From Ulota crispa (lineage: Eukaryota > Streptophyta > Bryopsida > Orthotrichales > Orthotrichaceae), in assembly GCA_963920765.1 (NCBI GenBank), contig OY987244.1:12464501-12528500 (forward strand): DNA of 64,000 nucleotides, written 5' to 3'. The translations under genes were made by a program, and so were the position numbers. The notes under the pieces are model-generated. The model worked only from the letters and a program-made list of their open reading frames with translations. It had not been told where the DNA came from and ran no database searches. Positions 6,555 through 64,000 of the stretch are shown in pieces (the first letter of the stretch is position 1; the number at the start of each line of letters is the position of its first letter).

Positions 6555-6927
6555 TTAATCCTTGAACGTTTGGCTAGTCACCGTGATTACCCCTCTATAA
6601 TGCTCTACAATGGTGTGGCAAGTGCTTACACATTATAATATTGTTTCTAAGAGTTGCACAAGTTAACAATGCATGTTGACCTCATGAAAATTGCAAGAAA
6701 GAAAGCATGGGACCTAACACTATGTTCCTAGATCTTCTCACAATTTGGGTTACCTAAGAATATGAGTGCACTTGGTGAGGTTGTTTTTTGGCCTTTAATG
6801 ATGAACCATGTATATATGATCCCTTATAAAAAAAAAACAAATGAAAAACAACTATTTTCTGTCATTCAAAGTGTTTTATTTATAATCGGGGGACAAAAAA
6901 ACGTTCATCTTGTAGTTTAGGGGTTAA
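6555..6927 (-). mobile_element. TTAA-flanked nonautonomous element, ~375-bp subfamily
   Basis: TTAA at 6555-6558 is followed by TCCTTGAACG. The right end reads TTTAGGGGTTAA, ending at 6927. The interior matches, in inverse orientation, the element at 15801-16171: a segment with a GGTGTGGCAAGTGCTTACAC stretch, CTCATGAAAATTGCAAGAA, and a dinucleotide-rich centre. Similar copies are at 31318-31638 and 62634-63020. It has no coding capacity. Confidence 0.7.
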
Positions 6928-6990
6928 ATGGTCTCCTTACAAAAATGAGCTAGCAACAAATGAACCTTGCAACTATCAAATCCTTAATTT

Positions 6991-7401
6991 TTAACCCATT
7001 AAGGACCGGTTGACAAGTTCCTGGTCAATTTTGACTCTTTTCACTTTGTAGAGAGAGCCTATCAAGGAATTTGATGACGTGGCAAAGGGGATGAGTCTGG
7101 GGAATTGGAAAGTGAAGAGTTTAGGACAATAACCAAGCCAATCTAAGGTGGCATGTGACTAGAGGGTTGAAAAAACTAAAAAAGTACTGACTGAAAATAC
7201 ACCAACAAATGCAAAAAGATGACCATAACAACTAAAAAGTGAGCATAGTTCATGATGCATAACACTAAACCCTACAAGATACATCCATCTGTACGGTCAC
7301 ATCTGTGATAGACATCTGTATTCAATAACCTTAAAATTTCCCCCAAATGGCAATACAAAGATTGCCCACCCCAGAATCGACCACGGTCGTTAAAGGGTTA
7401 A
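6991..7401. mobile_element. TTAA-flanked nonautonomous element, 411 bp
   Basis: TTAA at 6991-6994 precedes CCCATTAAGGACCGGTTGAC. The right end, reverse-complemented, reads CCCTTTAACGACCGTGGTCG next to TTAA at 7398-7401. The two ends are therefore imperfect inverted repeats of the same CCC(C)TAAA type as the other copies. The interior does not resemble the other subfamilies. Confidence 0.6.
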
Positions 7402-7752
7402 GAAAAAACTTACTAGCAAGCTACAGTTCACTAACTAACGTTGCTCACCAAAGACACCCAGCTTGCATTGGCTACATTAAAGAAAGCTTCCTTCCTCTCC
7501 CCATGAGTAGAACTTCAAATATTTGTCACTTACCGTATTCATATGATAATCAACCAACATGACTTTTTAGTATGCTGGGATATTCTAAGAAATCCCAAAA
7601 TCGTAAGAGAAAACAGCTGAAAACCACAAAAAGAATTCCCCAAGCTTGTGTACCAGAATCAAACCAATAATTTGAAACTACTGTCGTAAACAGAAGTGAT
7701 GCATCTCTTGAAAGCCCAACACGGTAACACCGTAACAGACCAAAGAACCTGA
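7402..7752. other. Intergenic, nothing recognised
   Basis: No gene, RNA gene or clear repeat is seen between the TTAA element and the tandem duplication. Confidence 0.5.
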
Positions 7753-8128
7753 CATGACTGGCACATACAAGTGAATCATAGGGCACTAGGTCAACAACCC
7801 AGTACTTTACATGATATAGAGAGGCAAAAAAATCCACCAAGGGCCTTATGGCGTCATGAATGCTTGTTTTATAAAAAAGAATTACAGTGAGTATCCAAAG
7901 CTCGAAATCAATATCAGACTCAGCTCTAAATCGGAATTTTTCATGACTGGCACATACAAGTAATCATAGGGCACTGTATCAACAACCCAGCGCTTTACAT
8001 GAAGAGAGGCAAAAAAACTTCACCAAGGCCTTCTGGCTTCATGAATGCTTGTTTTATAAAAAGAATTACAGTGAGTACTCAAAGCTCGACATCAATATCA
8101 GAACTCGAACTCTAAATCAGATTTTTTT
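7753..8128. repeat. Tandem duplication of a ~189-bp unit downstream of the minus-strand gene
   Basis: Unit 1 (7753-7941) and unit 2 (7942-8128) both start CATGACTGGCACATACAAG. They run in parallel through AATCATAGGGCACT, CATGAATGCTTGTTTTATAA and GAATTACAGTGAGTA, with scattered substitutions and small indels. The unit contains no long ORF. It lies just 3' of the stop codon of the minus-strand gene, so it probably overlaps that gene's 3' UTR or immediate downstream region. Confidence 0.85.
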
Positions 8129-8212
8129 AAAATTCAATTAAGAAATTAGAGCTCTATGTACCATGACTATCTTATATTACAAACCTGCAGCATTGGCAGA
8201 GTTTAGGCCCTG

Positions 8213-11200
8213 TCAATACTGGTCAGGATGGCGGAGCACATCCTCTCGGTGATGTGCTTCTTGCAGCGAGGGTGGCTCCTCCTGGTATCCCTTACGAGCG
8301 TTCAGCTGCCGGGCTCCTCCGTAGACAGGATCGGAGAACACACTGGCGTATATCATGTGTGCATTTTCGGAGCTGATTGGAGCTGGTGGAGGTGCCCCAT
8401 ACTCATTTTCTTGTTCCATATCCAGCCTCTCGGGTAGCTGAAATCCACCATAGACGTACCTCCCATCTCCCATGCCCGTGCCTCTTCCCATGCCTGTGCC
8501 TCCTCCCATGCCCATGCCTCCTCCCATGCCCATGCCTCCTCCCATGCCCCTGCCCCCTCCTGCTGCTCTTGCATAGCCAGAGTCTTTATCTCCATACGTT
8601 GGCCTTTTTCCACTAGAAGGGTCTCCATAGCCACCACCACCACCGCGTCCTGTTCCTGAAACACCTGCAATGAAATTCTCTTTTAGAAAGATAACAGTGC
8701 AAATTTGGTACTTGAGAGTTGCATTCAGTTCCCAAGTAGTTGACCATAACCGGTTATTGACTTTTCTATGCTAATGTGGCATTGCCCCATTGGCAACCTG
8801 TCACCATTGCCACTACAAGTTGCAACTCATAACCTTTTTTCCTTTCAACTTGATTCCTACACTCTTGAATCATGACGATCAAAGGTTGTGATTGAAAAAT
8901 GTACAACTAATTATGTACGATAATAGCTGCTAGCACGGCTCACCGGTTATCTAATACATAACTGGTTTCTTCAACAATATCGCTAACGTGTTGCTCAAGA
9001 TTAGCTCATGGAAGAGAGCAATAATCAGCAGAGAAAAACAAATATGAACAATTCAAAAACAGAAACCAATTATGAGATGCGAACTAGGTAATGATGTGAC
9101 TATCCCAAAGATGAATCTTATCTATAAGCAAAGTCTTCTTGATGTGTCAGTAATGGTTAGCTTCTATTAATTAAACTCGGTTAAGTCCGGTACTCGTTTT
9201 CTTAGAACCGGTCATTAGTGCACTGATAACCGGTTCTAAGAAAACGATTACCTAATACATCCACGCACTTATGAAGATTCAAAGTCGTTGCTAGTACGGT
9301 ACTTATTTTAAATCTAGATTAAGTATTGCATGTGGTACTCTACACTCTACCTGCTTGTAGCAGGTTAATGTCACACTCAGTTGCAGAGCAACAAGGTGTT
9401 GTCCGCCACCAGCCATAGTGGATCACATGCAATACTCAATTTAGCACATCTGCCAATAAAAACTGCAACACACGCAAATAAGTGTTACTACGGGTTGTAT
9501 TCACAAGGTCTGTTGAGAATTAGGTCACGTTCCAGCAAAAGTGTCCACCCAAGTTGACTAGAATTGCTCATTCGCGACCAGTTCGAATAAAGTTGGGTGG
9601 GGTGGAGACTCCGTGGCAAGAGCAAGACATGGTTCCCCATTAGTTGGAATCAGCGACCTTTAAATTGGCTAAAGTACGAAGGATTTCTATCAAAAAAAAC
9701 TATACAGCTAAAAAACATGTGAACTATACAGTGTTAAATTTGAAACTTTTAGCTTTTTAGCAGTGTTTAGAGCCACACGAGCTGAAAGTGAAAAGCACAT
9801 TTGGGATCACTGGTTGGAACATGAGTAGATCACGCTAGAAGAAAACGTGCAATAAACAACTGATCTTAAACAACTGCAAATGTCCTAAACGACTAAAATT
9901 GAGTCATTGTACAGTCGTTTAGGACACTCGCAGTTGTTGTAAACCAATGGTTTAGGACAATTTTTTCTTCTAGTTAGAAAGACAGGATGTAACAAATATA
10001 GGCAGCTGAGAGTCTTAAGAACCAATCGACCATGGACTCTTCTTCTAATAGGGTTGGATTAAGGGAGGGTGAGAGCAGTACCACTTCCGGCATAGCCAGG
10101 CTCTTGAGCTCCTCGAGCATAGCTGCTATTTGACGGAGCTCCCTGAGGCATAGACAAATGGTCAAACGAGTCTGATTTATCATAAGGAGAAGGAGGAGCG
10201 CCCCTTCCAAGGCCCCTGCTGCTGCTGTCCAGCTCATTAGGACGTGGTTGAGAGGCACCGTAGTATCCCGGCTCCCCATCCAAAGGCCGAGCAAGAGGGC
10301 CCCTTCCTTGTCTCGGGCTTTCTCGTTCATCCACCTCTGGGTCGAAATGCCCAAATGGTCGCTCTCGTGGAGAACCTGGCGGTCCTGACCTGCAATATCC
10401 GCAAAAAACCTACCTGTTAGGGTAAGAGAAACTAGATAAAATGCCCGAAATTCTCAGAAAAATCATATCAAACTTAAGAAAACAGTGTAATAGTGGCTTG
10501 CGTGCAATGTACAGCTTAGGAAGTGACAAGGCTCACCACAGGTTGCAGTGCATTGCAGATAGCACACAATTTCAACAAAGCCACCAATGAAAATAGCAAC
10601 ACGGGTTGTATCTGTTGAATACTCCCTTTGTCCCTCTAAAAACGTCCAAATCAGACACATTCTTGTACCACTAAATAAACTTCCTTTTTTGCTGATTTCA
10701 AACGTTGAGAAAGCGTTTGCCATGTTCATTGATCACATGGGGCAAGTTAAGCGATTAGAGAGCATTCCTCTCTTAGCAAGCTTGGCCTTGCCCATATGAG
10801 GTACCATTGTTGCTACCAATCTTTAAATCATCAATAATGAGGAACTGGCAACATGCACAAAGATAATATTTTTTGCATGGAATTTGGGTGCCGAAGCGGC
10901 AACATCAAAGCTGAAGATTTTGCATACATTTGGTAGATGGTATATCAATTCTAGAATGCATGTGTCACTAGCACAAAGACTAAAAACACAGTTAATCCTT
11001 TGCAAGGAAGCTTTTTGAACGTTTTTAGAGGGATAGACAAAGGGAGTACAAAGTACATGAGGTTCTACTACACACATCCCGAAAAAGTGGATGTGAGTAT
11101 TTGCATTTACAAAAGGATAGGGTAATATAGAAAAACTAGTATGACCCGCAGTAGCCATTGACTTGGGCTCTCGAATTTAGGACTTGGGCTCTCAAATTTA

Positions 11201-11319
11201 GGACTTGAGCTCTCAATTTCACAACTTGAGCTCTTGATCCATGCTTAAACATGCTCATAACTTAAATTGCTTTGCTTGACGGACAGACACAACTAGTGCA
11301 GATCGACAAACACTTAATC

Positions 11320-11357
<38 letters not shown>

Positions 11358-11676: not shown

Positions 11677-11724
11677 GGTTGATGATGGTCCTTATAAGTG
11701 CCGTGGGTTTCAGCTTCCCTGTAC
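11677..11724 (-). other. Probable 5' UTR part of the exon carrying the start codon
   Basis: On the minus strand a good acceptor (GTACGTACAG) ends at about 11725. It is followed by 48 bases leading to ATGGGAAACAG at 11676. This suggests a spliced leader whose first exon lies upstream, probably near 13825-14000. Confidence 0.45.
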
Positions 11725-12842: not shown

Positions 12843-13097
12843 TAAGGTAGGAGGAGGCTTGAATTACGCTCGGGGTTCTAATTGCGTTCACGTTTAGGAA
12901 CGGCTGACATGTTTCTTCAAATATCTATTACTGTTATTGATGAGTTAGGTAGGCTTAGCAAGTTAAACCTAATTTGTTAAGCCTACCTAACTCATCAATA
13001 ACAATAATAGGTAATACATATTTGAAGAAACTTGTTCAGCCGTTCCTAAATGTGAACGCAATTAGAATCCCGAGCGTAATTCAAGCCTCCTACTTTA
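12843..13097. mobile_element. Foldback element with TAAGGTAGGAGG termini (copy i)
   Basis: A nearly perfect palindrome of about 255 bp. The left arm starts TAAGGTAGGAGG and includes AATTACGCTCGGGGTTCTAA. The right arm mirrors it through GAATCCCGAGCGTAATTC to CCTCCTACTTTA. The loop is only a few bases near 12970. Two other elements (30806-31208 and 48974-49303) share the terminal TAAGGTAGGAGGC/GCCTCCTA(C/A) sequence but are not fully palindromic. There is no coding capacity. The superfamily is uncertain. Confidence 0.8.
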
Positions 13098-13824
13098 GAC
13101 GAGTTCTACGCAAAAAAACCAATTTGCTATTGTAATCAATTAAATGATCAGCTTGTTAGAATAAATTCATCAGTGATTACTACCAGCATTTGCAATCCTC
13201 AAAACTTTCCCTCAATCCACTACAAGGAAACAATGTCCAAACTGACAAGTTCAAATTGACTAAAATGTCTGAATTGACAAAACTTTGACAAAACATATCC
13301 AAATTAAAGACAAATATCCAAATCAGGATGACCTAATTGACAAAAAAAAAAATGTCCGAATTGACACTGCTCCCTTGCAATGATGATCCATTGTCACATC
13401 GCTCGTGTTTGGCCTACCAGATCATAAAATCCGTACGTCTCACCAACCACTCCGCACACAATTTCTAACTCAAAATACAGCACTACAACAGAATAACAAA
13501 ACCTGAACAAGTACAATTGTTTCTCGCGCCAAGCTCTTTTCTTAAAGAATTCCACCAAGATTTGCAAAGATTCACATCAGAAAATCATACGAACACTGTA
13601 AGAGAATAACAAAATAAACAAATCAACAAAAGAAACTCCTCAAACAGATAACTGAGGTTTCTCGCGCCAAGCTCTTCCCTTTAAAGAATTCCATTAAGAT
13701 TTGCAAGATTCACAACTCATACGAAAACTGTAAAAGAATGAAAGAGTAACAAATCAACAAAAGAAACTCCGCAAACAGATAACTGAACGCGTAATGACAA
13801 TTACTTAATGCCAAACTCACCAGT

Positions 13825-14261: not shown

Positions 14262-15420
14262 TTAGAGCATCTCCACAGGTCCGGGCTCTGGTCGGCCCTC
14301 AAGCCCCTTGATCTCCAAAAAGTGGCCTCACACTTCAACACGTTCTATAAATAAGCAGGTTAACCACTTATCAAGGAAAGTGGAGGATAAAATTCATTGA
14401 ATTTAGCTCCTAACTATCAAGGCCATTTTCTGTCAAAATTTACTCAAAACTGCCCTTATTGTTGCGTTCATTAAATTTTTTAACAAAATGTTGTTCTTGA
14501 AAATCTAACTTGTAATGCACTTGTAGAAGAAGTGGTAAAATTTTTGTGACATTTGGTTATATGGATTGAAAGTTATGAGCATTTGAAGGGAAAAGTTTTT
14601 TTTTCCTTTTGTGCCCAAAAATTTAAGATGGCTTTGACTGACACTTGCTGATTTTTTTTTGCACTACAGACCTTGAAGTTGTAATTTTGTCTTATAGTTA
14701 ATCAAGTGAGACCTTTGTACACCAATTTTCAAGGCAATCAAAGACACAGAACACATCCTAAAAAATATGACAATGCCACTATATGACAAGTTTTGCAAAT
14801 ACACTATGACATTTTTGAGTGAAGATTCTCACCACATGTTTTTAGATATGGAAAATCCAAACGGTGTGTTTGAAGATGAACATGTACTTCAAATGTCAAA
14901 AAAAAAAGTTAAAAAACTCAAAATCTCTAAAATTTAGAAGCTCCCAAAGCCCAATATGACCTCCTAATTGGAAATGAAAGGGGAAATAATGGGGACCACC
15001 AGAGCAACATGTGGCAACCCCTCCTTGCTCCCCCCCTTCAAAGTCAATATTTTCTCCCTTGTCCAATGCAAGCTGCCCCTTGAAACTGCTTTTGGCCAAA
15101 AAAAACCCATAACTTGTGAACCGTGTGACATAATCACATGATTTTTTGCATCCCACAAACCTTATACATTCCTACACACTCTTTAAAAGTTTTAAAAAAC
15201 CATGTAAGAAATTGAGGTCACACGAGCCTACCCAAAATCCCAAAAGCCCCCCGAGGGGACTTTGGGGCTTTAGGGGTTAAGGTAAATAGTGAATGAATAG
15301 TGGCTTGAAGGGCCCTTGCTAGACACAATAGGACAAAGTGTCTTGAGAGGGTTTTGAGAGGGGCCTCAAAGCTTTTCATCCACTTTGAGTGTGTTGGAGT
15401 CACCGGTGGAGATGCTCTTA
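14262..15420 (+). mobile_element. Tourist-like MITE 'A', interrupted by a TTAA element
   Basis: The left end TTA-GAGCATCTCCAC (14262) and right end GTGGAGATGCTC-TTA (15418-15420) give terminal inverted repeats and a TTA direct repeat, the target type of PIF/Harbinger (Tourist) MITEs. GAGCATCTCCA termini are common in plant MITEs. Without the insert at 14403-15276 the element is about 285 bp. Its sister copy B (15421-15723) lies immediately next to it in inverse orientation and shares the TTA. Confidence 0.75.
14403..15280 (+). mobile_element. TTAA-flanked nonautonomous element (~880 bp) nested in MITE A
   Basis: The left flank TTAG (14403-14406) precedes CTCCTAACTATCAAGGCC. The right end is GGCTTTAGGGG followed by TTAA (15277-15280). 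Near the left end it carries GTCAAAATTTACTCAAAACTGCC, the same signature as the copies at 29855 and 43001. Near the right end a CC-rich hairpin (CCCCGAGGGG) precedes the terminus. The uninterrupted sister MITE has a single TTAG at this site. No ORF is meaningful. Confidence 0.8.
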
Positions 15421-15723
15421 GGGCGTCTCCATCGGTGGCTCAAACATGCTCAAAGTAGATGAAAAGTGTTGAGGCCCCTCTCAAAACCCTCTCAAGACAC
15501 TTTGTCTTATTGTGTCTAGCAAGGGTCCTTCAAGACACTATTGATCCTAAGTTTAATGCACTTTATCCTCTACTTTCCTTGATAAGTGGTCAACTGGTTA
15601 TTTATGGGACGTGTTCGAGTGCAAGGCCACCTTTCTGAAGAGCATGGGTGAAGATCAAGGGGCTTGAGGGCTGGCCAAAACATATGCAAAACTTTGAAAG
15701 TGTCCAAATTGGTGGAGATGATC
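15421..15723 (-). mobile_element. Tourist-like MITE 'B', intact inverse copy of A
   Basis: The ends are GGGCGTCTCCATCGG (15421) and CCAATTTGGTGGAGATGATC-type (to 15723), flanked by TTA at 15418-15420 and TTA at 15724-15726. Read on the minus strand, the interior follows MITE A base by base (AAGGAAAGTRGAGGATAAA, TTGAAGG, CCCTTGCTAGACACAATA), apart from substitutions, small indels and an 11-bp AATAGTGAATG repeat present only in A. It serves as the empty-site control for the nested element in A. Confidence 0.75.
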
Positions 15724-15804
15724 TTAACCCCTCAACGCCCCAGGTATCTCAAAACACATTAGAAATGGGGCAACATTTTTACCTTTGGGGTGTTGAGAGG
15801 TTAA
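15724..15804. mobile_element. 80-bp TTAA mini-element
   Basis: TTAACCCCTCAACGCCCC at 15724 mirrors GGGGTGTTGAGAGGTTAA ending at 15804. Both ends are bounded by TTAA, and the right TTAA is shared with the next element. This is the smallest member of the TTAA/CCCC family in the window. It overlaps the TTA of MITE B on its left. Confidence 0.7.
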
Positions 15805-16171
15805 TCCCTGAACGACAAGGCAGACGTTTTATGTTTGTTGGGCATGAAAAAAAACACTTTGCTTGTAGGAAAATTGCCATTTTCCATTTGAATTATTTTA
15901 CAAGTGATCATACATACATGGTGCATCATGGAAGGCAATAAACAACCTCACATAATATATTCGTATTTTTAGGTAGCCCAAATTGTGAGAAGATTCACAC
16001 ACTCAGTCTTAGGTTTCATGCTGCCCTTCTTGCAAATGTCATGAGGTCAGCGTGTATTATTGACTTTTGTAGTTGCTTAGGCATTTGCCACACCAATGGT
16101 AGCACTAAATAACATTGTAGAACACTATAGCTGGGCTTGTCGTTGTGACCAGCCCCTCGTTTAAGGATTAA
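15801..16171 (+). mobile_element. TTAA-flanked nonautonomous element, ~375-bp subfamily
   Basis: TTAA at 15801-15804 is followed by TCCCTGAACGACAAGGC. The right end CCCTCGTTTAAGGA precedes TTAA at 16168-16171. Internal landmarks are a CATGGTGCATCATGGAAGGC segment, GCTGCCCTTCTTGCAAATGT and TCATGAGGTCAGCG. They recur in the copies at 6555 (inverse), 31318 and 62634 (inverse). It is non-coding. Confidence 0.8.
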
Positions 16172-23225: not shown

Positions 23226-23550
23226 TTCCTTTCCCTCTACCTTTTGTCATTTGAATTATTTTTAGATTTATAGAAGCCAAGAAGCAATAAATGAAATTGA
23301 AACTTACTGACTGTATACAAAAATAAACAATGGAAACATATAATCAAAGAAATTTATTCAAATTATATATTTTATTACTCTTTCTTGCTCTTTTATACTA
23401 TGAAAACCTTTTACTTTAGAATTATTTATTTTTAAATTTATAAAAGAACCCTTTATAAATAAGGATCTTTACTTTTGTCAAAATTTTACTTTAGTTAATC
23501 CACTTTGGTTACCAAACTAATACTTTATTTTTCCTTTACTTTGTCTATAC
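23226..23550. other. AT-rich spacer, nothing recognised
   Basis: About 325 bases upstream of the broken dioxygenase gene with no clear promoter element. A short minus-strand ATG-ACA-AAA-GGT-AGA-GGG stretch near 23250 could belong to an earlier exon or N-terminus in another frame. Confidence 0.4.
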
Positions 23551-24475
23551 TATCCCCTAAAGCACTAAGCTCAATTTTTCACCAAAACCGCTCCAAAACT
23601 GTCATTTCTAGTATGAGTACCAAATTTTAAAAAAAAACTTTTTTTGATAAATGTACCCACAAGATCTTGTAGTACACTAGTATCAAAAGATGTGATAAAA
23701 AACCCAAGAGTTTCACCATGAGGATTGTTAGATATTTGAGTTTGAATTAACAAAAAGCCTTTCTTGGTCTATGCAAAAATCCAGGCAGCTGCACTTCGGA
23801 AGGTCATATTTGTATGAAAAAAATTCCAAAATGATTGTGGTTTTTTGGATTTGTTCTTCCAAGCAAGTTCACTAAACACTTGAAACTTTTCAAATCATTT
23901 GGAATTGTCAAACACACTGAAAAACAGTACTAAGTAAAAAGAAGTAGAGAATGATTCAAATCACTAAATTGTTAAGAACCTAAATATGAAAATGAAAAAT
24001 TCCAATCCCAATGGTTATAATGTTTTGATAAAAAATCTACATTTTTTGGTTTTCTTTTTCTAAAACATTAAATATGAGTAAGTTAACGGACATTAAAGTT
24101 TATTTTAGAGTAGAAAATCTATAACTGCTTGTAAACAAAATCTCCTCATAACTTTCATCTCATTGATCAAAATGGAAAAATTCAAAGCTCCCCAAGTATA
24201 CATAAATCTAAAGAACCAATGGGGAAAAACAAAATTCAAAAAATATAATTTCTAAAGAAGTTTTTTGACTCCCTACCAAGCAAAGAAAACTACATATAAT
24301 GCAATAACTTTTGAACCATGAAGTTAAAAGTTATGAAATTTGTTGGGCCTTAAAGCTACTCCTTGGACACATCATGTGTGAAAATTTCAAAGAAAAAGAT
24401 GAAAATCCCAGTGATAGTGAGCTGTCCAAAATTATTATGCTGCCAAAAAAAGGTGTTCGGTGCTTTAGGGGTTAA
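23551..24475 (+). mobile_element. TTAA-flanked nonautonomous element, ~930-bp subfamily
   Basis: CCCCTAAAGCACTAAGCTC begins at 23554, after a degraded left flank (CTAT). The right end TGCTTTAGGGG is followed by TTAA (24472-24475). The interior follows the order of the copy at 29855: an ACCAAAACCGCTCCAAAACT left signature, GAAAAACAGT...AAGTAAAAAGAAGTAGA in the middle, and the right subterminal segment. Confidence 0.7.
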
Positions 24476-24599: not shown

Positions 24600-25534
24600 T
24601 TAACCCCTAAAGGACCAACCGTCTCCTTGGAGGACAAATGGACCTCGGGCATGCACCTATGATTAAACCAGTTTTTATAAATTTTTGAATTTTTGAGGTT
24701 GGTGGGGAATTCAAAAATGTATGTGCACATCTAACTTTTTCTTCATTCTGACATTTATTGAAGAAGTTATGCATGAATTTCTGAAAAACGGGGGAGGGCG
24801 AGCAATCTGGGCATCCCAAAAAACTTCTTTAAAATTTGTATTTAAAATAAATAAAAATCTGAAATTGATTCTTTAAATTTTTACATATGTGGAAAGCTTT
24901 GAATAATTCAATTTTGATTGATGAGTGAGAAGTTTTAGTTTGCAGGTAGGTATGGGACTCTCAAACCTTCATTCCTTTTGCCCCTTGTAAAATTTGATGA
25001 TTTAATTTTTTTTTACTTTTCTTTTTTCCAATTTTAGTAGACTAAGATTTCTTGATTTACACATTTGGATTAGAGTAATTTATATTTCTCAATTTTCTAT
25101 AAATCCTCCAAATCTTGCCTAGTGCATATGCAAATTTCATGTCCTTACGGCATTGCAAGATTTTACAAAGTATGATACACACCTCCAATTCATTTGAAAA
25201 TTCTCCCACACATACCTAACTTGGTCTTCTACAAGAAAAAAATAAACCTCAACTTTGTGTAGAACAATTTTTTTGATATTGGAGTGATCAAAGGCTTCTA
25301 AAATTTCCAAGCAGTAGGGAAAAACACTTTTTGTTTCACTTCAGATGTCAATATCTCACTCTTTTACATCTAGAATGAGCTGATTTTTTCCACAAGTACC
25401 TCCCATAGTATAGGGTAAGATCCTCCAGTTGAATTTTCAAAAAACTTTTTTTCCAACTTTTATACTCATTCCCACAAAAGTGACAATTTTCAGTAATTTT
25501 CACAGAAAAATGGGCTTGGTCTTTTAGGGGTTAA
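24600..25534 (-). mobile_element. TTAA-flanked nonautonomous element, ~930-bp subfamily (inverse)
   Basis: TTAA (24600-24603) is followed by CCCCTAAAGGACCAACCGTC. The right end CTTGGTCTTTTAGGGG is followed by TTAA (25531-25534). The interior matches the copy at 29855 in inverse orientation. It includes ATTGAAGAAGTTATGCATGA near the left end, and reads AAAAAACTTTTTTTCC and CACAAAAGTGACAATTTTCA near the right. Both TTAA copies are intact. Confidence 0.85.
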
Positions 25535-27314: not shown

Positions 27315-27358
<44 letters not shown>

Positions 27359-28283: not shown

Positions 28284-29221
28284 TTTACCCCTAAAGGATT
28301 GAGCCATTTTTTCAGTGAAAATCACTCAAAACTGCCACTTTTGGGGGATTAGTAAGAAGGTAGTTTTTTTTAAAAAAATTTGGGAAATCCAACCGTAGGA
28401 TCTTGTCCTATAGAGGATTAGGTACTTGTGGGAAAAAAATGAGCTCTTTCCAAAAGGAGATGAGTGAGATATTACATCTAAAATGAAAAGAAAAGTTTTT
28501 TTCATGCTGCCCCAAATTTTTAGAAGCCTTTGACCACTTTTATAACAAAAAAGTTGCTCTATCCAAAGTTGTGCTTTTTTTTTTCCATGTAGGAGATCAA
28601 GTTAGGTATGTGTGGGAGAATTTTCAAATCAATTGGAACTACACGATACATGGGAAAAATTAGTAAGTAAAAAGAAGTAGAGAATGAGCCAAATCAATAA
28701 ATTGTTAAGAATTTAATCATTAAAATGAAAATTGCAAATCCTAATGGTCAAAATGTTGTGATGAACAATCTACTTCCTTTTGTTTAAATTTATTCCAAAA
28801 TAATGAAAATTGAGTAAAATAAAGGACTTCAAAGTTTATTTTAGAGTAGAGAATCCATAACTTGCCCGCAAACAAAAACTCCTTATAACTTTGATCTCAT
28901 TGATTGAAATTGAATGATTCAAAGCTTCTCACCTATAAGAAAAATTCTACAGAACCAATTTCAAATTTTAAATTAAAAATTAAATAAATTTAAAGAAGTT
29001 TTTGGGCTGCCCAAGCGGGCAGTCCTCAACAAATTTTCAGAAATTCTTGCATGACTTCTTCAATAATTATCAGAATGAGGAAAAATTAGATGCCCACGTA
29101 GATCTTTGAATTCCCCACCTTCAATAAAAGTTTCAGAAAATCACACAAAGTAATTTATCCCAAGGTACATGCGCAAACTCCCACCTGTCCCCCGAAGGGA
29201 CAACATTCCTTTAGGGGTTAA
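28284..29221 (+). mobile_element. TTAA-flanked nonautonomous element, ~930-bp subfamily
   Basis: The left flank TTTA (28284-28287) precedes CCCCTAAAGGATTGAGCC. The right end ATTCCTTTAGGGG is followed by TTAA (29218-29221). Near the right end a hairpin TTGTCCC...GGGACAA stem (CCTGTCCCCCGAAGGGACAA region, about 29184-29203) precedes the terminus. Confidence 0.85.
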
Positions 29222-29854: not shown

Positions 29855-30808
29855 CTAACCCCTAAAGGCCCAAGCCTTTTTTTTGTGTGAAAATCACTCA
29901 AAAGTGCCACTTTTGGAGGAGTGAGGAGAAATGTTTTATTTTTTATTTTCTTTGGAAATCCAACCAAGAGATCTTGCCCTAGACTATGAGAGGTACTTGT
30001 GGGAAAAAAAACTAGCTCATTCTAGTTGTAGAGGAGTGAGATATTCACATCTAAAGTGAAAACAAAAGTTTTTTCCCCTGCTGCTCGGAAATTTTAGAAG
30101 CCTTTAACAACTCTTATATCAAAAAAATTGCTCTATGCAAAGTTGAGGTTTATTTTTCCCATGTAGAAGACCAAGTTAGGTAAATGAGGGAGAATTTTCA
30201 AATGAAACGGAGGTGTGGATCATACTTTGTAAAATCTTGCAATGCCGTAAGTTCATGAAATTTGCATATACACTAAGCAAAATTGGAGGATTTATGTAAA
30301 TTCAAAAACCCAAATTACTTTGATCCAAATGGTGAAAACCAAGGAATCTTAATCTACTACAACTTGCAAAAAAAAAGTAAAAAAAAAAATACACAAAGAG
30401 CTCAAAAAAGTAAAGCAACAAGTTTTACAAGGGGGAAAAGGAATGGAGGTTTGGGAGTCCCATACCTACCCACAAACTAAAACTTCTCATAACTTTCATC
30501 TCATCTATCAGAATTGAATGATTCAAAGCTTCCCAAATACATAAAAATTTAAAGAACCAATTTCAAAATTTTATTTAAAAAAGTTGCAATTTTTTTTTTG
30601 CGGCCCAGTTCTCCCCTGTTTTTCAGTCATTCATGCATAACTTCTTCAATAATTGTCAGAATGAAGGAAAAATTAGATTCCCACGCAGATCTTATAATTT
30701 CCCATCTTCAATAAAAGTTTCAGAAAATCACACAAAGTAGTTTAGCCATAGGTACCAGCCCAAAATCCCATTTGTGCCTAGAGGGGACAATGGGCCTTTA
30801 GGGGCTAA
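29855..30808 (+). mobile_element. TTAA-family element with CTAA on both sides, ~950 bp
   Basis: The left flank CTAA (29855-29858) precedes CCCCTAAAGGCCCAAGCC. The right end GGGCCTTTAGGGG is followed by CTAA (30805-30808). The flank is the same in direct orientation on both sides, as expected for a target duplication at a variant TTAA site. The right CTAA is also the start of an adjacent TAAGGTAGGAGG element, so an alternative reading is possible. The interior carries the AAAATCACTCAAAAGTGCC left signature and the GTTATGCATGAA-type segment (inverse) near the right. Confidence 0.8.
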
Positions 30809-31208
30809 GGTAGGAGGCTTGAAAAGCGACCTTTGTCAGATAATGAGCCCCATAGGTAGCCCAAAAATGGATAAGATGTGGTTCTTGAATAGAACCTCCT
30901 TAGTCTTAAAAGGAAAATTGTCTTTTATTGCAAGAGCCAATCACATTCCTTGATTTCACCTAATCTCTTTAAAAAATACAGGAGGATGGTTTATGGGAGA
31001 TCTAGAATCATAAATAGATACCTACTACATAAAACTTTGAAAATTCATCAACAATTCAATAATGCCTCAAAAAATATGAAAAGAATTGGGTTACATTTAG
31101 CATCCATTTCTCTTTGTCTGAAAACTACACAAAAATCTTCTTGTTGCGGGAACACCACAAAAAATAGATCAGCCCTTAATAGGGTTGCTTTTCGAGCCTC
31201 CTAACTTA
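30806..31208. mobile_element. TAAGGTAGGAGG-ended element (copy ii)
   Basis: The left end TAAGGTAGGAGGCTTGAAAA (30806) is mirrored by GTTGCTTTTCGAGCCTCCTA at the right (to 31208). The interior is about 370 bp with no inverted structure and no coding capacity. It abuts the TTAA-family element on its left without a gap. Confidence 0.7.
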
Positions 31209-31317: not shown

Positions 31318-31638
31318 TTAACCCCTAAACGTCGGCATAGATGAAAAACGTCCTTTGCCTAAAAAAAACAACTATGTATCCCAAAAAAAGATTGGTTTTG
31401 ATTTGATTTTTTTAGAAGTGATCATAAATGCGTAGTGCATCATGAAAGGCAAAATATTACCTCTTGAGATACATTCATTTTGTTTTAAAACCCAAATTGT
31501 GATTCATGGTATTAGCTCCCAAGCTGCCCTTCTTGCAATTTTCATGAGGACAGCATGCACTATTGGCTTTTCCAACTTTTCTATAGAATGCTATAAGCAA
31601 GGCAAGCCATGGTGATCCATCCGTCCTTTAAGGGTTAA
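31318..31638 (+). mobile_element. TTAA-flanked nonautonomous element, ~375-bp subfamily
   Basis: TTAA (31318-31321) is followed by CCCCTAAACGTCGGCATAG. The right end CCGTCCTTTAAGGG is followed by TTAA (31635-31638). It shares GCTGCCCTTCTTGCAATTTT and TCATGAGGACAGCATGC with the copy at 15801. Confidence 0.85.
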
Positions 31639-32756: not shown

Positions 32757-32980
32757 TAGGGCAATGAACGGCCCGAAAGCCCTTTGCGCTCGTATGTACG
32801 GTCAAACATATTTGAACTGTTCTGAAGGCTTTCCAAATTTTTTTATGCACCCACCATCATACAACATTTTAATATGTATGGTTGTAACACTTAAATTCTA
32901 ACTAATTCAAATTTCTAAATATTAGTTACGATTGTATTTGGTACCGTAGCTCCAGAGCCCAATGGCCCTTCAGAGGTTAA
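32757..32980 (-). mobile_element. TTAA-family element, ~220-bp subfamily, left end eroded
   Basis: The right end GGCCCTTCAGAGG is followed by TTAA (32977-32980). The interior matches, inverted, the copy at 61367-61586: a GCATGTACA/CGTATGTACGG stretch, GGCTTTCC, ACCATCATACAAC, TATGGTTGTAACACTTAA and GTATTTGGTACCGTA. The left end is degraded (GGGCAATGAACGGCCC). It lies 78 bases upstream of the F-box gene start. Confidence 0.65.
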
Positions 32981-43000: not shown

Positions 43001-43925
43001 TCAACCCCTAAAGGACCACGGCCTTTATTTTGTCAAAATACACTCAAAAATGCCACCTCTGGCAAAGAGTAAAAAAGTTTGAAAATCAAGCAGTTTGCAT
43101 ATTTGACCATAGGATCTTGTGCTAGATTACTATAAGAATGTGTCATACAAAACTCAAGAATTTTGACCGCACAAATTGGAAGATATATGCATTTAAAGTG
43201 TAAGAAAAACCTTTTTTTGCACCTTGCTTGATTAGGTTTTTTATCTTTGAACATTTTTAACTTAAAATTTTTGCACCATAGAGTTTGGAATTCTATTTTT
43301 GCATGGTGGGAAGTTGAGTTGGGAATCTTGGGAATTTTAAAAAAAAAAATACTTAATTTCATTCTTTAAAAAAACATTAGGTAGAAGAAGGTATGAGATT
43401 GAAATAAAACTTAAATTGCTAATAACCTTGCAATGGAATTGAAACTCAATAATCCCAATGGTGAGATTGTTCTAGAAAGAAAACTTCACTCTCTCCAACA
43501 ACTTTTTTTGAAAAAATGTTAAGCTTCCATTCCAAAATGAACTGTATAAGTTATTTTTTCAAGAGGATGCTTGAATTACCCAAAAACAAGATTGTCCATG
43601 ACTTTCTCATAACTAGTCCAAATGGAATGAATCAAAGCTTCAAATGTAGATAAAGATATAATCTATAAGAGAAAAAAAATTAAATATTTTTTTCAAGTTT
43701 TTATAAGAATTTTTTTTGCTGCCCCTAGCCCCCAAATTTGTGCTTATTTGTGTATAACTTTTGCTCCCTGGCATCAGTTGGAATAAAAATTATATTCACC
43801 AAAAGCTAATGTGTTTTTCTATCTTCAAAAAAAGTTTAAAAAAATTAAGACAAAATTTGAGGCCGTAGGTACCTGCCCAAAATCCCAATTGTCCCTCGTT
43901 GGGACAATGGTCCTTTAGGGATTAA
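43001..43925 (+). mobile_element. TTAA-family element, ~930-bp subfamily
   Basis: The left flank TCAA (43001-43004) precedes CCCCTAAAGGACCACGGCC. The right end GGTCCTTTAGGGA is followed by TTAA (43922-43925). The left signature AAAATACACTCAAAAATGCC and the right subterminal hairpin GTCCCTCGTTGGGAC match the other long copies. Confidence 0.82.
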
Positions 43926-47170: not shown

Positions 47171-47174
47171 ATAT

Positions 47175-47253: not shown

Positions 47254-47256
<3 letters not shown>

Positions 47257-57700: not shown

Positions 57701-60354
57701 AAGTGATCAAAGTAAAAACACAAGATGGAAGTTGAGGATGGACCTATTAGCTGTTCTTACATTCGTGATGACTCTTGTAACAAAACTCTAAGTGAAACAA
57801 GTTGCATGGCAGTGTTGCACGCTTTTTGGAGACACGTGGAATGCTCGAGGACGCCCTTAACGTTGCTACAGACCCTGATTATAAGTTTGACCTCGCTGTG
57901 CAGCTTGGCAAGCTTGACTTGGCAAAGGTTGTGCTTCTTGTATGATCTATTATTTCCATGCATGCCATTAGCATTATTGAAGGATTTTGCTTGAAGAGTG
58001 TGGGAGGTTAGCTTGGGGCTGAAACTCATCAGATCATGTTAACTATCGGATTTGTACTGTGTGGAATTTCATCTCATATCCCATGAAATTTTACAAATTT
58101 GAATCTCTTTAGGCTCATGGTGTTTTGCCATTTTGGTTTGGATTCCAGCTGAGTTACCACTTACATGCGTTGCTTGACGCAGGCTATTGCTGAGGAATCT
58201 CACAGTGAGTCTAAGTGGAAGCAGTTGGGAGAGTTGGCAATGTCTGCTGGGAAGGTACGAGCCTGCTAGAAGTAGGTGAATGGTTATGTTTAAAGTCGCT
58301 TGCCAAGGTCTACATGTTGAATCTGCTTGCGTTCCTCGTGTGTTCCGTCCAGATTCAAGTATGATATGGAAACCTATTTGATTTGTTTTGTTTGTTTGGT
58401 TTGTCATGTTGAGATATCACAAATTGGAGGCCTACATGAGCACACGGGGTGTAATTTGAAAGCCCTCACCAAGGAATGATGTATTAATTCTGCTTTTTAA
58501 TCTTAAAATTGAACTTAGAGACTGGCAGTCATTGAAGGCAAGTTTTAGAAAAATGCATTGCTTCTTATTATAAAAGAGCTGTATTTCTGCAAGGTTGGCC
58601 TTTCTCACATCAGTGGTTGCTGAAAGTGTGCTCAACACATGCTATGTTTGAAATTAATTCCAATGTTTGGCATGTCTTTCTGCAGTTGGATGTTGCAGAC
58701 GAGTGTCTACGGCATGCCAAGGACCTAAGTGGTTTGCTGCTACTCTATTCAGCTGTAGGCAATGCCCGAGGTCTAGAAAAACTTTCTGTATCAGCACGGG
58801 AGAAGGGCAAGAATAATGTTACTTTTATAGCGTTGTTCCTGCTTGGAAAGCTGGAAGATTGTGTTGAATTGCTCATAGAAAGGTAAGTGAATTGCCCTCA
58901 TGCAATATAACAACATTTTAAATAACTGTCTGAAGTTATAAAATATATCATTGAGTTCAAAACTTGTACTGCAAGAAAAGAGACCATCAGTGACATGGTT
59001 GAGTACACGGTGCAAATAAATCCGTATATCTGTTTTCAGTTTCTGAGTTTTCTGTTGTGCAGCAATCGAATTCCTGAAGCTGCATTCTTGGCACGTACTT
59101 ACTTACCAAGCCAAGTGTCCAGAATAATTGCTCTCTGGCGCAATGATTTGAAGAAGGTATATTATTTATACCTCTAAACGACCACGAGGCCCAAATGTTT
59201 GTTTAGCCTGTTTCTAAGTAGGCCATACGTGGACTTTCTGTTGTTTAGTTTTGTTTATTTTCTTGTCAACCCATGCAACGTTCTTTACCAATTCTGGTCC
59301 TAAATTTGTTGGTCTCATCCATGTTACGTTTTTCACAATGTGGTCAATCAAATGGGTCATTTCAAACTATGAATCTTTGATCTTTTAGGGGTTAATTTTA
59401 ATCATCCTTCTTTTCCTATATCGTTCTTCAATCTTGGCTCCTGCCTCAATAGTGACAGTTGGAAGTTCTATCTGAAAGGACAGTATTTTCTTGGATGAAT
59501 GAGCATTACTATGATTTTACCATGCAGTATAATTGTGTTATTTACTAAACTTTAGCTTGAATTGCTAATATTTTGTTTGGTGCATGATACCAGATTAATC
59601 CAAAGGCTGCAGAGTCTTTAGCAGATCCCGAAGAATATCCCAATATGTTTCCAGAATGGGAATCTGCATTAGCTATGGAGCTCAAATCCAAGGACCAAAG
59701 GTGACAAAATTTTCAAATTGCTGCTGCTGCAAAGTTTACCTTTTGTTCCTATTTCTGTGTATTGAGACTACAGCTTACTTACTGTAATGCAATTTTGAAT
59801 GGGTTTCTGGTATTGCGATAAGTGTACAAGATCATAACGCCTATACATCTACTTATTTGATGTGCCAGGGGCAATTATATTCCTGCAGCAAATTATTTGA
59901 GCTACATCAACGGTGTTGATGAAGAGTTGACAGAAGATTTGCAACAGCTCTCCATCAATGGAGATGAGCCTACAGAAAATGGTCATGGTTCGCAGGTGGT
60001 ATAACAATACATGAGAAGCATCATAACTTCTTCATCAACCTAGATATAATCCTCCGTGGTTTCTTAGATTTTTTCAGGAATTCCTAGACATCATTGTAAA
60101 TAGAATCTATCTTATTGCAATTTTCCAAGTAAGCTTCTTTGTTTCAACTGTAGGGTTTCTGTGTTTTGTTTAAAGTATTATTTTTTGGTTGGTTTCAGAT
60201 TGAGGAGTTTGTTACGGAGGATGTAGAGGAGGAAGAAGTTCTCCATACTGATGAGGAAGGGTATGAGGATGCGGAACAAATTTTTGAAGGCGGGGGTGAG
60301 CATGCGCAAGCCGTGAGAGATGGAGAAGAACCGTCAGCACGTGCCGGGGTTTAA
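51755..60354 (+). CDS. COPB2: Coatomer subunit beta-prime (COPB2), 23 coding exons, intact
   Basis: WD40 subunit of the COPI coat, which sorts dilysine cargo from Golgi to ER. Coding exons: 51755-51775, 52192-52253, 52742-52796, 52956-52992, 53332-53657, 53855-53986, 54182-54330, 54548-54616, 54818-54968, 55092-55157, 55560-55748, 55906-56046, 56147-56221, 56459-56638, 56844-56935, 57181-57297, 57813-57927, 58183-58254, 58686-58882, 59063-59156, 59594-59700, 59869-59995, 60199-60354. All introns are GT-AG and phases agree. The total is 2730 nt, 909 residues plus Met, the usual family length. Landmarks are PLRLEIKRKLAQRS at the N-terminus, a first propeller with [14 protein letters not shown] and [11 protein letters not shown], a second propeller with [16 protein letters not shown], an alpha-solenoid with [12 protein letters not shown] and [10 protein letters not shown], and an acidic C-tail ([14 protein letters not shown]). 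The residues are strongly plant-like. No lesions are seen. Confidence 0.97.
59166..59395. mobile_element. TTAA-family element (~230 bp) in a coatomer intron
   Basis: The left end (TTTATA)CCTCTAAACGACCACG begins at about 59166-59171. The right end GATCTTTTAGGGG is followed by TTAA (59392-59395). It lies wholly in the intron between exons 59063-59156 and 59594-59700, so it does not disturb the gene. Confidence 0.6.
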
Positions 60355-60805
60355 ATTTTTGGAAATGTTTTGGAAATTTTCTCATTTTATTTTGGTTTGT
60401 AGTGAATTAGATACGTTGTTATCTGAATTCATGGCATGGGAAACGTTGTTATGGAAAATACCTATATTATTGGAGCATGTGCCCTTAGAAATTACCATGT
60501 AGAGATTATGCAGTATTGGTTCAGTATTGGTCTATGCCAGAGTTAGAGTCCTAGAGTATTAGTTTTCTAAGTTTTCAAGGGAATCAAATTTTATTGATAA
60601 ACGTCCTTCAGCCATACAAGGTGGTGCGTAATTTCAAATTTATTGGCTGTTCGATGCCCAATTGACTGAATTTGGTCAATTTCATCCAAGGTGTCATAGA
60701 TTAGGAACTATGATTCATCGTAAGCCAGCCTGCCTTGTGTTTTCATCTATCTAGGTTTTGTTGCACTTCATAACCTTCCTAAGCATGCTGGCCAAGATGT
60801 CGTTG

Positions 60806-61137
60806 ATTGCAACTCTACTCGTCATTGTTGCACTGCTATTCATCAAACAAATTTTGACTTGTCACTTGTTACACCCTCAACTTGTCAAGTTACATAAATT
60901 CTAGTCATACATTATTAGTGAATCTCAACAAGTTGCATAATTATTTGTCAAGTTGTAAAGCAACTTGTTGCTTACATTGGAGCCCGTTTTTTGCACTTGC
61001 GGAGTGATGAATAACTTTGCAACTTGTTGAGATTCACTAAGAGAATTTATGTAACTTGACGAGTTAGGGTGTAACAAGCAATGAGTCAAAATTTGTTTGA
61101 TGAATAGTAGTGCAATAGTGACAAGTAGAGTTGCAAT
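60806..61137. mobile_element. Foldback element just downstream of the coatomer gene
   Basis: The left arm (ATTGCAACTCTACT..., 60806 to about 60937) and right arm (about 61018 to ...AGTAGAGTTGCAAT, 61137) are near-perfect inverse copies. They share CAAATTTTGACT, TGTTACACCCT and GAATCTCAACAAGTTGCA. The loop is about 80 bases. It is non-coding. No clear target duplication is seen. Confidence 0.85.
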
Positions 61138-61366
61138 TAAGGATATAACAAGATTTGAAGTGGTGTACATGTAGTTTTCCCTATTATCACTTCTCTAGCT
61201 TCAAAATTGGGTTTTATAGGTATTGTAAGAAAGATTTTAGAGTCCTTTACTTAAAGTACAATTTTTATTTCATTTGACCAAAATTTGCAAAAGATAGAGC
61301 GTATTTGTTATGAAGACCTCAGTTAGGCATACAATTTATTCCCCCAACTCCTTAACTATAGCAATG

Positions 61367-61586
61367 TTAACCCTTGAAGGGCCCTTGGGCTCTAGAGATA
61401 CAGTACCAAATACGGTCGCAACCAATATTCAAAAGTTTAAATTAGTTAGAAATTAAGTGTTACAACCATACATATTGAAGGGTTGTACGATGGTGGATGC
61501 ATTATTTTTTTTGGAAAGCCCTCAAAACAGCTCAAATACAGATGTACATGCGGCCACAAATGGCTGATGGGCCGTTTAGGGGTTAA
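61367..61586 (+). mobile_element. TTAA-flanked nonautonomous element, ~220-bp subfamily
   Basis: TTAA (61367-61370) is followed by CCCTTGAAGGGCCCTTGGGC. The right end GGGCCGTTTAGGGG is followed by TTAA (61583-61586). Its interior matches 32757-32980 in inverse orientation. Confidence 0.85.
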
Positions 61587-62339
61587 CTATAAAATACCAA
61601 AAATAAATGAAATTTGTTGGCTAAGCTAGCACTTATGGATGACCATAAAGTCCAAGGAAAGGAAGAAGAAGTCCAAAGATGAAAATGATAAAATATGATC
61701 ATGTATGACTATAAAAACCTCTAAGGAAGTGATAATATGGCAATTTCAAATTTGAGCTTAACCTTACCCTTACCTCACTAAAACCTTGATAACTAACACA
61801 TATTTCACTCATTTAAGAATTTGAAACTTGATACAAAACCTTGACTTGATTATTTTTTGAATGATACCATAATCATGATATTTGATGTATTGTAGATTTT
61901 GTCATTAATATTTGAATTAAGGCCCAATGATAATAGGGTAAATTGCATGCAAGCTTTACTCGAAGTTTTGAAATGTTTGTAATTGTTGCTTGCTCTAAGT
62001 GTTCAAACTTGAGGTGCAAGGGTGTCCATCCAAAAATTGATTAATTATGGCATAGCTTGAAGGTGCGACAACCTCCTATTTGGGATTCTAAACCTCAGAA
62101 AAAATGAGTTTCTTCAAGGTGTTTTTCTTTGCTAAAATGGCATATTTTTCATACAATAACACGTTTTTCCGTGAGAAAATCCAAAAGTTATGCAGACCTA
62201 GCGAGGTGTGCAAAAGTGCACGCATGGGCTCTCGTGCTTGAGAAAATCAAGAAGTATAAAGAATCATAATTCTTGTTGTACTTGAAATCACTTCTAAAAA
62301 ATAAAAACAAATTCCTCCCAAACAAGAAAACAGATTGAT
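61587..62339. other. AT-rich intergenic stretch, nothing recognised
   Basis: No ORF, RNA gene or clear repeat is seen. Confidence 0.5.
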
Positions 62340-62466
62340 TTAAGGTATGTTCACACCTGGTGTTAAGAGGGGTAGTAGCAAGGGAAAATTAGATGTATTT
62401 GGATACACCTTTTGACTACATTCATATTGTTAATATCCCTCCTAACACCAAGTGAACATATTCTTA
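62340..62466. mobile_element. Tourist-like MITE, TTA-flanked (copy 2)
   Basis: TTA (62340-62342) is followed by AGGTATGTTCACACCTGGTG. The right end CACCAAGTGAACATATTC is followed by TTA (62464-62466). It is the same family as 42137-42263 and of the same length. Confidence 0.8.
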
Positions 62467-62633
62467 GTTGTGGAGTGTATTGAGGTTTAAAATTACCTTG
62501 TATTTAGTCAAACACTATGTGGACCTTTGAGCACAATGTTTTATGAAATGTACAGTAGTTATTGTCATAATGAGGTAAGTTTGCACCAAAAAATTATCTA
62601 CATCCCTATATTCTAGTATAGTACTCCAATATT

Positions 62634-63020
62634 TTAACCCTTGAATGCGCAGTTGGTCACCATGAGTGCCCCTCTATAGTAGCTCTACAATGCTTTATAG
62701 TGGTGTGGCAAGTGCCCACCCATAATAATGTTGTTTTTAAAAATTGCAAAAGTCAATAGTGCATGCTAACCTCATGAAAACTACAAGAAGGGCAGCATGC
62801 ATGGGACCTAACACTATGTTTTTTAACCTTCTCACAACATGGGTTACCCAAAAATATGTGCATTTGGTGAGGTTGTTTTTTGCCTTCCATGATGCACCAT
62901 GTACCTATGATCACATCTCAAAAAAATCCAAATGAAAGACAGCTTTTTTTTGTCATGCAGAGTTTTTTTTTTTTGATGACCAAGGGGCAAAAAACATCCC
63001 CATTGGCGTTTAAGGGTTAA
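62634..63020 (-). mobile_element. TTAA-flanked nonautonomous element, ~375-bp subfamily
   Basis: TTAA (62634-62637) is followed by CCCTTGAATGCGCAGTTGG. The right end GGCGTTTAAGGG is followed by TTAA (63017-63020). The interior (GGTGTGGCAAGTGCCCACCC, CTCATGAAAACTACAAGAAG, CCATGATGCACCATG) matches the copy at 6555 in the same orientation. Confidence 0.85.
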
Positions 63021-63457
63021 GAGCATCTGCAACCTTCTCCACTTAGAGCACACAAAGGAGGGTTTGAAGTGTGCTAATTTCCTTGACAATGATGGCTCCG
63101 AGCTGGAGAGCCAACCTTCCTCATCAACTACGCATGTCAAGAGATGCTGGTGGGACTGTTAATCCAGTGTTGTCAAAACCTCCTTTGCTTCAACAAAGCA
63201 ACAATTGAAAAAGCACAAAAAGCAGATCAACTCGTCCATGCTACGTGCCACAACAATCACGGACCATCTTACAAAAAAGACAAACTCACAAAATAGAAGC
63301 AACAATTGAGCACATTGATTTGGAAATGACACCAGAGTTTGATGTGTTGTAGGCAGAGTTTGGCAAGGCCTGTCAATTTTTCCCATTTGACGAGCTCCCA
63401 GTAAATTTCAATCTACAAGCCTGCCGAGGCAAAGACCCATGCTTGGCCATGTGGCGA
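63021..63457 (+). other. Eroded sequence, possibly once coding
   Basis: This stretch starts GAGCATCTGCAACC, which resembles the GAGCATCTCCA MITE terminus. It has higher GC than its surroundings and several medium frames on both strands, but none matches a family I know. It may be a captured gene fragment or the interior of another mobile element. Confidence 0.3.
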
Positions 63458-64000
63458 TTAACCCCTAAATGCCCAAGCCACCCAATTTGGATGTTTGCAA
63501 AACTTTGAAGATGAATAAAATCTTATCAAATCACTATTTTTGGTATTTTCTTTTGAACACAAGTTTGATTTGAAGTCTATTTTCAACATCAAAAATCTGA
63601 TTTTGAAAATGAATGTTCATGATTTTTCTATTCAAGATTTTGTACAAGGGTGTCCACTATAATCTTGAGTTTTCTAGTGTTGGAAGATCTTGAAAATGAG
63701 CCTCAAATACACTAGAGCTTGGAGAAAAATCCACATTAGAAATTCATTAAAAAAAATATAAAGAAATAGATTTTGAAAGCTGTAAATTGGTTGAGGTTAA
63801 ACATGTAATAACCTTAAACCTCATATTTTTTTGATGACCAATTTTTTAGATTTGACATGTGAAATGAGGATTAGAAAACTTCAAGTCATTTTTGCAGTTT
63901 TAACACCCTCATGTTCAAACGTTATAATCTTTCAAACTTTAAGTGATATTGTTGTGTTTCCTTTTACCATGTAATCTCTAAAATGTCAAGTTTAAATTTG
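63458..64000 (+). mobile_element. Left end of a TTAA-family element running off the window
   Basis: TTAA (63458-63461) is followed by CCCCTAAATGCCCAAGCCAC, the same terminus as the long subfamily copies. No right end is found before the window ends. The interior does not obviously match the roughly 930-bp copies, so it may be a different subfamily. Confidence 0.6.

Follow-up and report, generated by a model that had tools for sequence, protein, structure and literature searches.

The window analysed here, a stretch of 64,000 nucleotides (C3:12464501-12528500 of a 274.8-Mb genome), carries many short inverted-repeat elements between TTAA-type tetranucleotides. The initial annotation listed 15 copies occupying about 13% of it, and this description is borne out: together they occupy 12.77%, and 14 of the 15 are verified as dispersed repeats by blastn within the genome. 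These repeats are almost certainly miniature inverted-repeat transposable elements (MITEs) of the piggyBac superfamily, derived from long, transposase-bearing elements in the same genome. The superfamily had been named from the ends and target site alone, and the name is now supported by PF13843 transposases and by a 4-bp target-site duplication. The genome search for an autonomous copy with the same ends, proposed at that stage, has yielded long elements encoding a piggyBac transposase.

Ends of the TTAACCCCTAAAGG type, allowing up to two mismatches, number 9 on the left and 14 on the right in the window, compared with means of 0.2 left and 0.45 right in 20 first-order shuffles of it. Thirteen of the 15 copies, named here by their first positions, have blastn matches (E<=1e-5) in fetched genomic loci (L001-L028). 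Where the alignments of relatives reach a claimed end, they stop there in 112 of 133 cases on the left and 137 of 179 on the right (right end of copy 63458, at the window edge, omitted). This boundary test gives no support for either end of copy 15724 or for the left end of 14403, because the alignments of relatives extend beyond those ends. The bases following TTAA differ among copies (CCCCTAAAGG, CCCTTGAAGG, CCCTTTAACG, TCCTTGAACG). What had been called one family does have related ends, but it comprises several families rather than a single sequence. The left end of 32757 reads TAGGGCAATGAACGG, and a 16th copy, starting at 63458 and running off the window edge, had been missed.

Transposase-bearing elements and the ~930-bp class

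A profile search with PF13843 (DDE_Tnp_1_7) returns at least 120 matches in the genome (best E 1.3e-73), a count that is a lower bound, with 116 of 528 candidates scored; there are none in 14 control genomes (0/14). As previously stated, the window shows no transposase: the PF13843 matches listed all lie outside it, and no open reading frame of at least 130 amino acids reads like one. Loci L029 and L030 were read whole, along with 2 kb downstream of eight further transposases. The downstream end of a transposase on C7 (L038), first noticed through CCTTTAGGGGTTAA, reads ...AAATGGGCTTGGGCCTTTAGGGGTTAA and closely resembles the element end at window position 25534. A protein search with the C7 transposase finds relatives at about 45-60% identity, and seven of eight relatives picked by protein similarity (L040-L044, L046, L047) end in the window terminus TTTAGGGGTTAA / CCTTTAGGGGTTAA, allowing one mismatch; this end lies 1.26-1.45 kb behind the protein match. 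None of nine other transposases (L029-L037) has the CCTTTAGGGGTTAA end; these share 33-38% identity with the C7 protein or are unlisted among its protein-search relatives. Of these, L036 and L037 end in ...CCTCAAGGGGTTAA and L029 in ...GGCAATGAAGGGTTAA; an end of the CCCTTTAACGACC type occurs at L030, L033 and L035; no end was found in the sequence read of L031, L032 and L034.

The identity of the transposase is evidenced by both profile and structural comparisons. A piece of the C7 protein matches PF13843 at E 3.2e-44, and the protein matches the Protein Data Bank (PDB) entries for Trichoplusia ni (T. ni) piggyBac (6x67/6x68; E 1.8e-17) and piggyBat (9c0f; E 1.2e-11). TID, TLD and GVD in the C7 protein align with the three catalytic aspartates (DDD triad) of T. 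ni piggyBac, which we take to be D268/D346/D447, and the C-terminus carries a Cys/His-rich segment.

Two complete elements of ~8.3-8.5 kb (C3e and C8e, Table 1) hold the transposase in their 3' half. No left end was found in the first ~5-kb upstream stretches; those of C3e and C8e came to light further out. In the main transposase region, C3e and C8e differ at 0.137, 0.155 and 0.275 of codon positions 1, 2 and 3, and the third-position excess argues for past selection on the transposase protein. The 5' part of C3e contains ~338-bp tandem repeats. A second gene in the ~8.4-kb elements was considered and rejected: C3e ~1063-1486 is conserved as protein with C8e, and visual inspection shows a similar segment ahead of the C7 transposase, so it is read as an N-terminal exon and the sequence after it as an intron, which the long elements probably contain. 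In the C7 element, a ~620-bp microsatellite with a 4-base unit lies directly behind the transposase (L039+L038 joined, about 4376-4996).

At 69-85% identity, the ~930-bp copies retain ~190 bp from one full-element end and ~350-590 bp from the opposite one. Window copies match the 3' ends of transposase elements over up to 541 bp (69-79%) and the 5' ends of the two complete elements over ~190 bp (69-85%). In copy 24600, positions 1-189 match the 5' end of C3e at 75.7% and positions 407-935 its 3' end (~535 bp) at 77.8% (E 1.8e-117), with an additional short block matching C3e just ahead of the 3'-end match. Copies 28284 and 29855 match both full-element ends in the orientation opposite to 24600, as do 43001 and 14403 over shorter stretches. 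The end matches of 28284 to C3e and C8e span 354-363 bp and 187-221 bp, and seven matches in the fetched loci span at least 60% of its length; the ends of 29855 match L046/C5e (79% over 534 bp) and C3e (85% over 186 bp). Copy 43001 belongs to a 5-copy subfamily with a mean divergence of 9.7% from its consensus. In 14403, the right 95 bp match the C8e 5' end at 75% and an internal block matches C7e at 68%; a full-length relative in L016 is 88% identical. Copy 23550 has full-length relatives at 69-86% and just a weak 72-bp match to C3e, and is joined to the class mainly via those relatives. Sharing both ends with full elements, the ~930-bp copies are therefore internal deletion derivatives that lack the transposase, and the piggyBac assignment of this class is close to certain.

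In the mechanism proposed, an internal deletion of ~7.7 kb in the ~8.3-8.5-kb elements that carry the DDD transposase would remove the whole transposase and leave short copies in which both ends survive. Working in trans, the transposase would recognise the ends (CCCCTAAAGGACCA...) and excise the short elements, which would then reinsert mostly at TTAA with duplication of 4 bp. That movement occurred in trans, and by a cut-and-paste reaction, is inferred by homology from established piggyBac biology, and it is most likely the transposase of the long elements that moved the window copies.

Of the 120 PF13843 matches, 10 are stop-free over the matched stretch. Stops interrupt the other 110, so transposition has probably ceased or is rare, and the transposase family looks largely dead. 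Long open transposase stretches with three aspartate motifs by eye occur at L053+L032 (C1:1179496-1183995) and L054 (C2:36764600-36766600); these copies may be active, recent or domesticated. Transposase pairs with near-equal or equal scores lie on opposite strands 15-109 kb apart (C2:36765124+36779670; C7:18203169+18223004; C10:676128+785346), as if within inverted duplications.

Target-site duplication and the smaller classes

At TTAA targets, 4-bp TTAA and 2-bp TA duplications look alike. The 29855-30808 element has CTAA on either side, and its flanks are part of an older repeat for which five related stretches were fetched. Two of these (L055, L056) hold a single CTAA with both sides aligned. 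The non-palindromic CTAA/CTAA copy, together with the single-CTAA related sites, thus argues for a 4-bp duplication and against TA or TTA models.

This site bears directly on whether the repeats could be Tc1/mariner (Stowaway-like) MITEs, with a TA duplication and ends ACCCCTAAA in a T-TA-A context. At TTAA targets that model and the piggyBac model give identical filled and empty sites, but to the right of 29855-30808 the TA model predicts GGGGTTAA where GGGGCTAA is seen. The single CTAA of the related sites and the linkage to a piggyBac transposase leave Tc1/mariner with next to no probability. An origin as PIF/Harbinger (Tourist-like) MITEs, with a 3-bp TTA/TAA duplication and the A-starting end ACCCCTAAA, is just as improbable. 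One side can be read as TTA followed by ACCCC, yet the opposite side, GGGGT followed by TAA, gives no direct repeat of TTA, and the CTAA/CTAA copy duplicates 4 bp rather than a TTA-type 3 bp. Both complete elements, moreover, carry a piggyBac transposase, although no genome search aimed at Harbinger transposases was made. The findings that the initial annotation held would contradict a piggyBac assignment (a TTA duplication with an A-starting end, no duplication at all, or a non-piggyBac transposase) were each looked for, and none emerged.

Joined flanks provide further evidence that the duplication is real. When 52 were compared with fetched sequence and matches counted if they had at most two gap bases through the junction, related unoccupied sequence aligned through the junction for four elements (Table 1). 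Two further joined-flank matches of 14403 contain 12 gap bases. Left out of this count are the junction-spanning L005 matches (73%, two gap bases) and the matches of L020 and L028 to themselves.

Several observations weigh against an origin of the repeats from piggyBac elements. The ends of the main, ~930-bp class start CCCCT, whereas PMC2872659 gives CC[C/T]T for the superfamily; the other classes start CCCT or TCCT. Exact TTAA is missing from 18% of CCCCTAAAGG sites in the genome. Among the sites related to the 29855 flanks, L059 has a single CTAA with left coverage of just 6 bases, L058 reads ATAA, and L057 has no junction coverage. Among the eight C7 relatives, L045 lacks such an end over 1.6 kb, where another MITE sits; 6 kb of sequence did not reveal the left end of the C7 element; and ~160 central bp of 24600 match neither full element. 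The codon-level selection test is a single pair, C3e and C8e. Lastly, the ~80, 220, 320 and 375-bp classes have no transposase partner among the loci and elements compared (L029-L037, C3e, C5e, C7e, C8e).

This last point favours the idea that the 80/220/320/375-bp classes come from a different lineage that also targets TTAA, for example a Sola3-type one, and merely resemble the ~930-bp class at their ends. Such an origin appears unlikely, given that these classes have the same TTAA and CCYYTRAA-like ends. In addition, several types of end (CCCCTAAAGG, CCCTTTAACGACC, CCCCTTGAGGGC, CCCTTCATTGCC) occur among the piggyBac loci examined, so end diversity is expected inside piggyBac. For the 6991 element, whose right end matches ends downstream of the transposases at L033 (67 bp, 76%), L035 (72 bp, 72%) and L030 (27 bp, 89%), the end similarity makes for a good piggyBac assignment. 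For the other classes, ends and TTAA alone make membership in piggyBac probable. Copy 15724 has no match in the fetched loci L001-L028. Adjoining elements with one common target tetranucleotide occur at L035:1631-1634 (TCAA) and at window 15801-15804 (TTAA), as if the second element had inserted into the duplication of the first.

Table 1. Window copies, complete elements and joined-flank matches. Flanking tetranucleotides are given left/right; percentages are identities unless marked as length.
Feature	Position	Strand	Flanks or ends	Relatives and remarks
~930-bp nonautonomous piggyBac element	24600..25534	+	TTAA/TTAA	Left = transposase-5' end, right = transposase-3' end
~930-bp nonautonomous piggyBac element	28284..29221	-	TTTA/TTAA	Both ends match C3e and C8e
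~930-bp nonautonomous piggyBac element	29855..30808	-	CTAA/CTAA target duplication	Both ends match transposase elements
~930-bp nonautonomous piggyBac element	43001..43925	-	TCAA/TTAA	Ends of ~60 bp and 103 bp match full elements
~880-bp relative of ~930-bp class	14403..15280	-	TTAG/TTAA	
~925-bp relative of ~930-bp class	23550..24475	-	CTAT/TTAA	Relatives in L016, L015, L020
Complete element C8e	C8 11097229-11105483	+	TTAA/TTAA	8,255 bp; PF13843 match inside
Complete element C3e	C3 27062805-27054300	-	TCAA/TTAA	8,506 bp; PF13843 match inside
411-bp element, second end type	6991..7401		Right end, read inwards: CCCTTTAACGACCG	
~373-bp element	6555..6927		TTAATCC../..GGGGTTAA	L015 relative: 87% of length, 74%
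~371-bp element	15801..16171		TTAATCC../..GGATTAA	L015 relative: 80% of length, 71%
~387-bp element	62634..63020			L015 relative: 88% of length, 71%
321-bp element	31318..31638		TTAACCCCTAAACG../..CTTTAAGGGTTAA	L015 relative: 64% of length, 68%
220-bp element	61367..61586		TTAACCCTTGAAGGGCC../..CGTTTAGGGGTTAA	Relatives L005, L027, L015, 83-87%
224-bp element, 220-bp class	32757..32980		Decayed left end	Full-length relatives L027 (two), L015, 73-77%
230-bp element	59166..59395			11 other genomic matches, 69-86%; 7 ending <=2 bases from right end
81-bp candidate	15724..15804		Ends readable	Shares TTAA 15801-15804 with neighbour; unconfirmed as repeat
Element cut by window edge	63458..64000		Begins TTAACCCCTAAATGCCCAAG	Relatives L024, L007, L010 and others, 75-91%
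Joined-flank match	61367 (in L014)			164 bp, gapless, 80%
Joined-flank match	L010:2831			67 bp, gapless, 81%
Joined-flank match	L026:8292			146 bp, one gap base, 84%
Joined-flank match	14403 (L016:2995-2870)			127 bp, two gap bases, 78%

The window has other features as well. Window 12849-13094 is a different inverted-repeat element, beginning AGGAGGAGGCTTGAATTACGCTCG, with 59-nt arms that are 95% complementary; its word AGGAGGCTTGAA recurs at 30812, within the repeat flanking the 29855 element. A 126-nt near-perfect palindrome (89%, 1-nt loop) at 15293-15545 starts 13 bases past the right end of 14403, and open reading frames at 3573-6382 look by eye like a decayed reverse transcriptase of the long interspersed nuclear element type.

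Genome-wide abundance and age

The ends are far more frequent in the genome than their reversed controls: the 12-base end TTAACCCCTAAA occurs 30,972 times (control 77), CCCCTAAAGG 18,843 times (213) and TTAACCCCTAAAGG 15,411 times (1). Exact TTAA precedes 15,411 of the 18,843 CCCCTAAAGG sites (82%); the frequency of TTAA per position is 0.7% (window and C1 samples). A library of the 16 window elements covers 29,741 of 199,822 bases (14.9%) in twenty regularly spaced 10-kb samples of C1, with 236 matches and none for the reversed library. The 14.9% is not a genome value, because the C1 samples are richer in exact ends (52, or 260 per Mb) than the genome mean of 113 per Mb; scaled by end density, the genome fraction is about 6.4%. 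By a rough estimate scaled from exact ends, the genome holds roughly 28,000 elements with these ends, based on 26 filtered end pairs (52 ends, 29 exact) from which chance pairings such as TTGT/TTAA were removed. Among the C1 samples (L009-L028), element coverage is 0-18% in six with G+C >=0.39 and 17-43% in seven at <=0.343.

Twenty of the 25 end pairs that are 800-1000 bp long match the 28284 element. They include three subfamilies, of 5, 6 and 3 copies, that average 9.7-10.9% from their own small-sample consensus, and the other six copies fall into smaller clusters. Judged from sequence, the bursts are not recent.

Host, known systems and significance

DYW proteins number about ten in mosses and many in hornworts and vascular plants, and Marchantia has none. 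The genome has 14 DYW-deaminase matches and 25 NAC-domain matches (about 13 genes); together these mark a land plant, and the low DYW number suggests a moss. Plant MITEs of the Tourist and Stowaway kinds belong to other transposase superfamilies and have 3- or 2-bp duplications; like the repeats described here, they are short, abundant, nonautonomous and bear terminal inverted repeats. With T. ni piggyBac (PDB 6x67/6x68), the elements of this genome share the TTAA target, a 4-bp duplication, short inverted ends starting with CC, and a DDD transposase with a C-terminal Cys/His-rich segment. They differ in their length of 8.3-8.5 kb, a long 5' part (with tandem repeats in C3e), a probable intron, main-class ends of CCCC rather than CCYT, at least one CTAA insertion, and the land-plant host. 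Coral CMITEs, with AmiPB1, are likewise piggyBac MITEs with a TTAA duplication and ends matching a piggyBac element of the same genome (PMC2872659, in excerpt). The same excerpt describes identical terminal repeats and weak internal similarity in the CMITEs, whereas here the shared subterminal sequence reaches 541 bp, at 69-79%.

Some published statements weigh against novelty. A review places PiggyBac among plant class II superfamilies, without details in the part available (PMC10794571), and the abstract of another has piggyBac isolated from insects, fungi and plants, again without details there (PMC10813416). For a fern, 1,230 piggyBac copies totalling 122 kb are tabulated (PMC6890710). A grass table contains one piggyBac of 75 bp (table excerpt; PMC8319324). 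An excerpt of a 2017 moss paper presents piggyBac as a moth-derived tool, yet untried in P. patens (PMC5505980). A Niphotrichum paper (PMC10619864) was rejected as a piggyBac report, both 'piggybac' matches in its retrieved text being 'piggybacking'. No native bryophyte piggyBac appears among the open-access papers listed; Repbase and subscription journals lay outside that search, so a prior annotation of moss piggyBac is possible.

Taken together, these elements are of a known kind, though the host is unexpected and their number striking. The superfamily is well known in animals and rarely reported in land plants, and here it is represented by at least 120 transposase matches. A broader view, in which a moss-like land plant has been shaped by a native footprint-free cut-and-paste transposon with several clades, each bearing its own MITE swarm, some clade still being active and targets having relaxed from TTAA to sites such as CTAA, would give plants a seamless-excision system of their own; it is conceivable and at present doubtful. 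Should such elements prove real across mosses generally, seamless excision native to plants would become testable, and the finding suggests that bryophyte repeat annotation should cover piggyBac.

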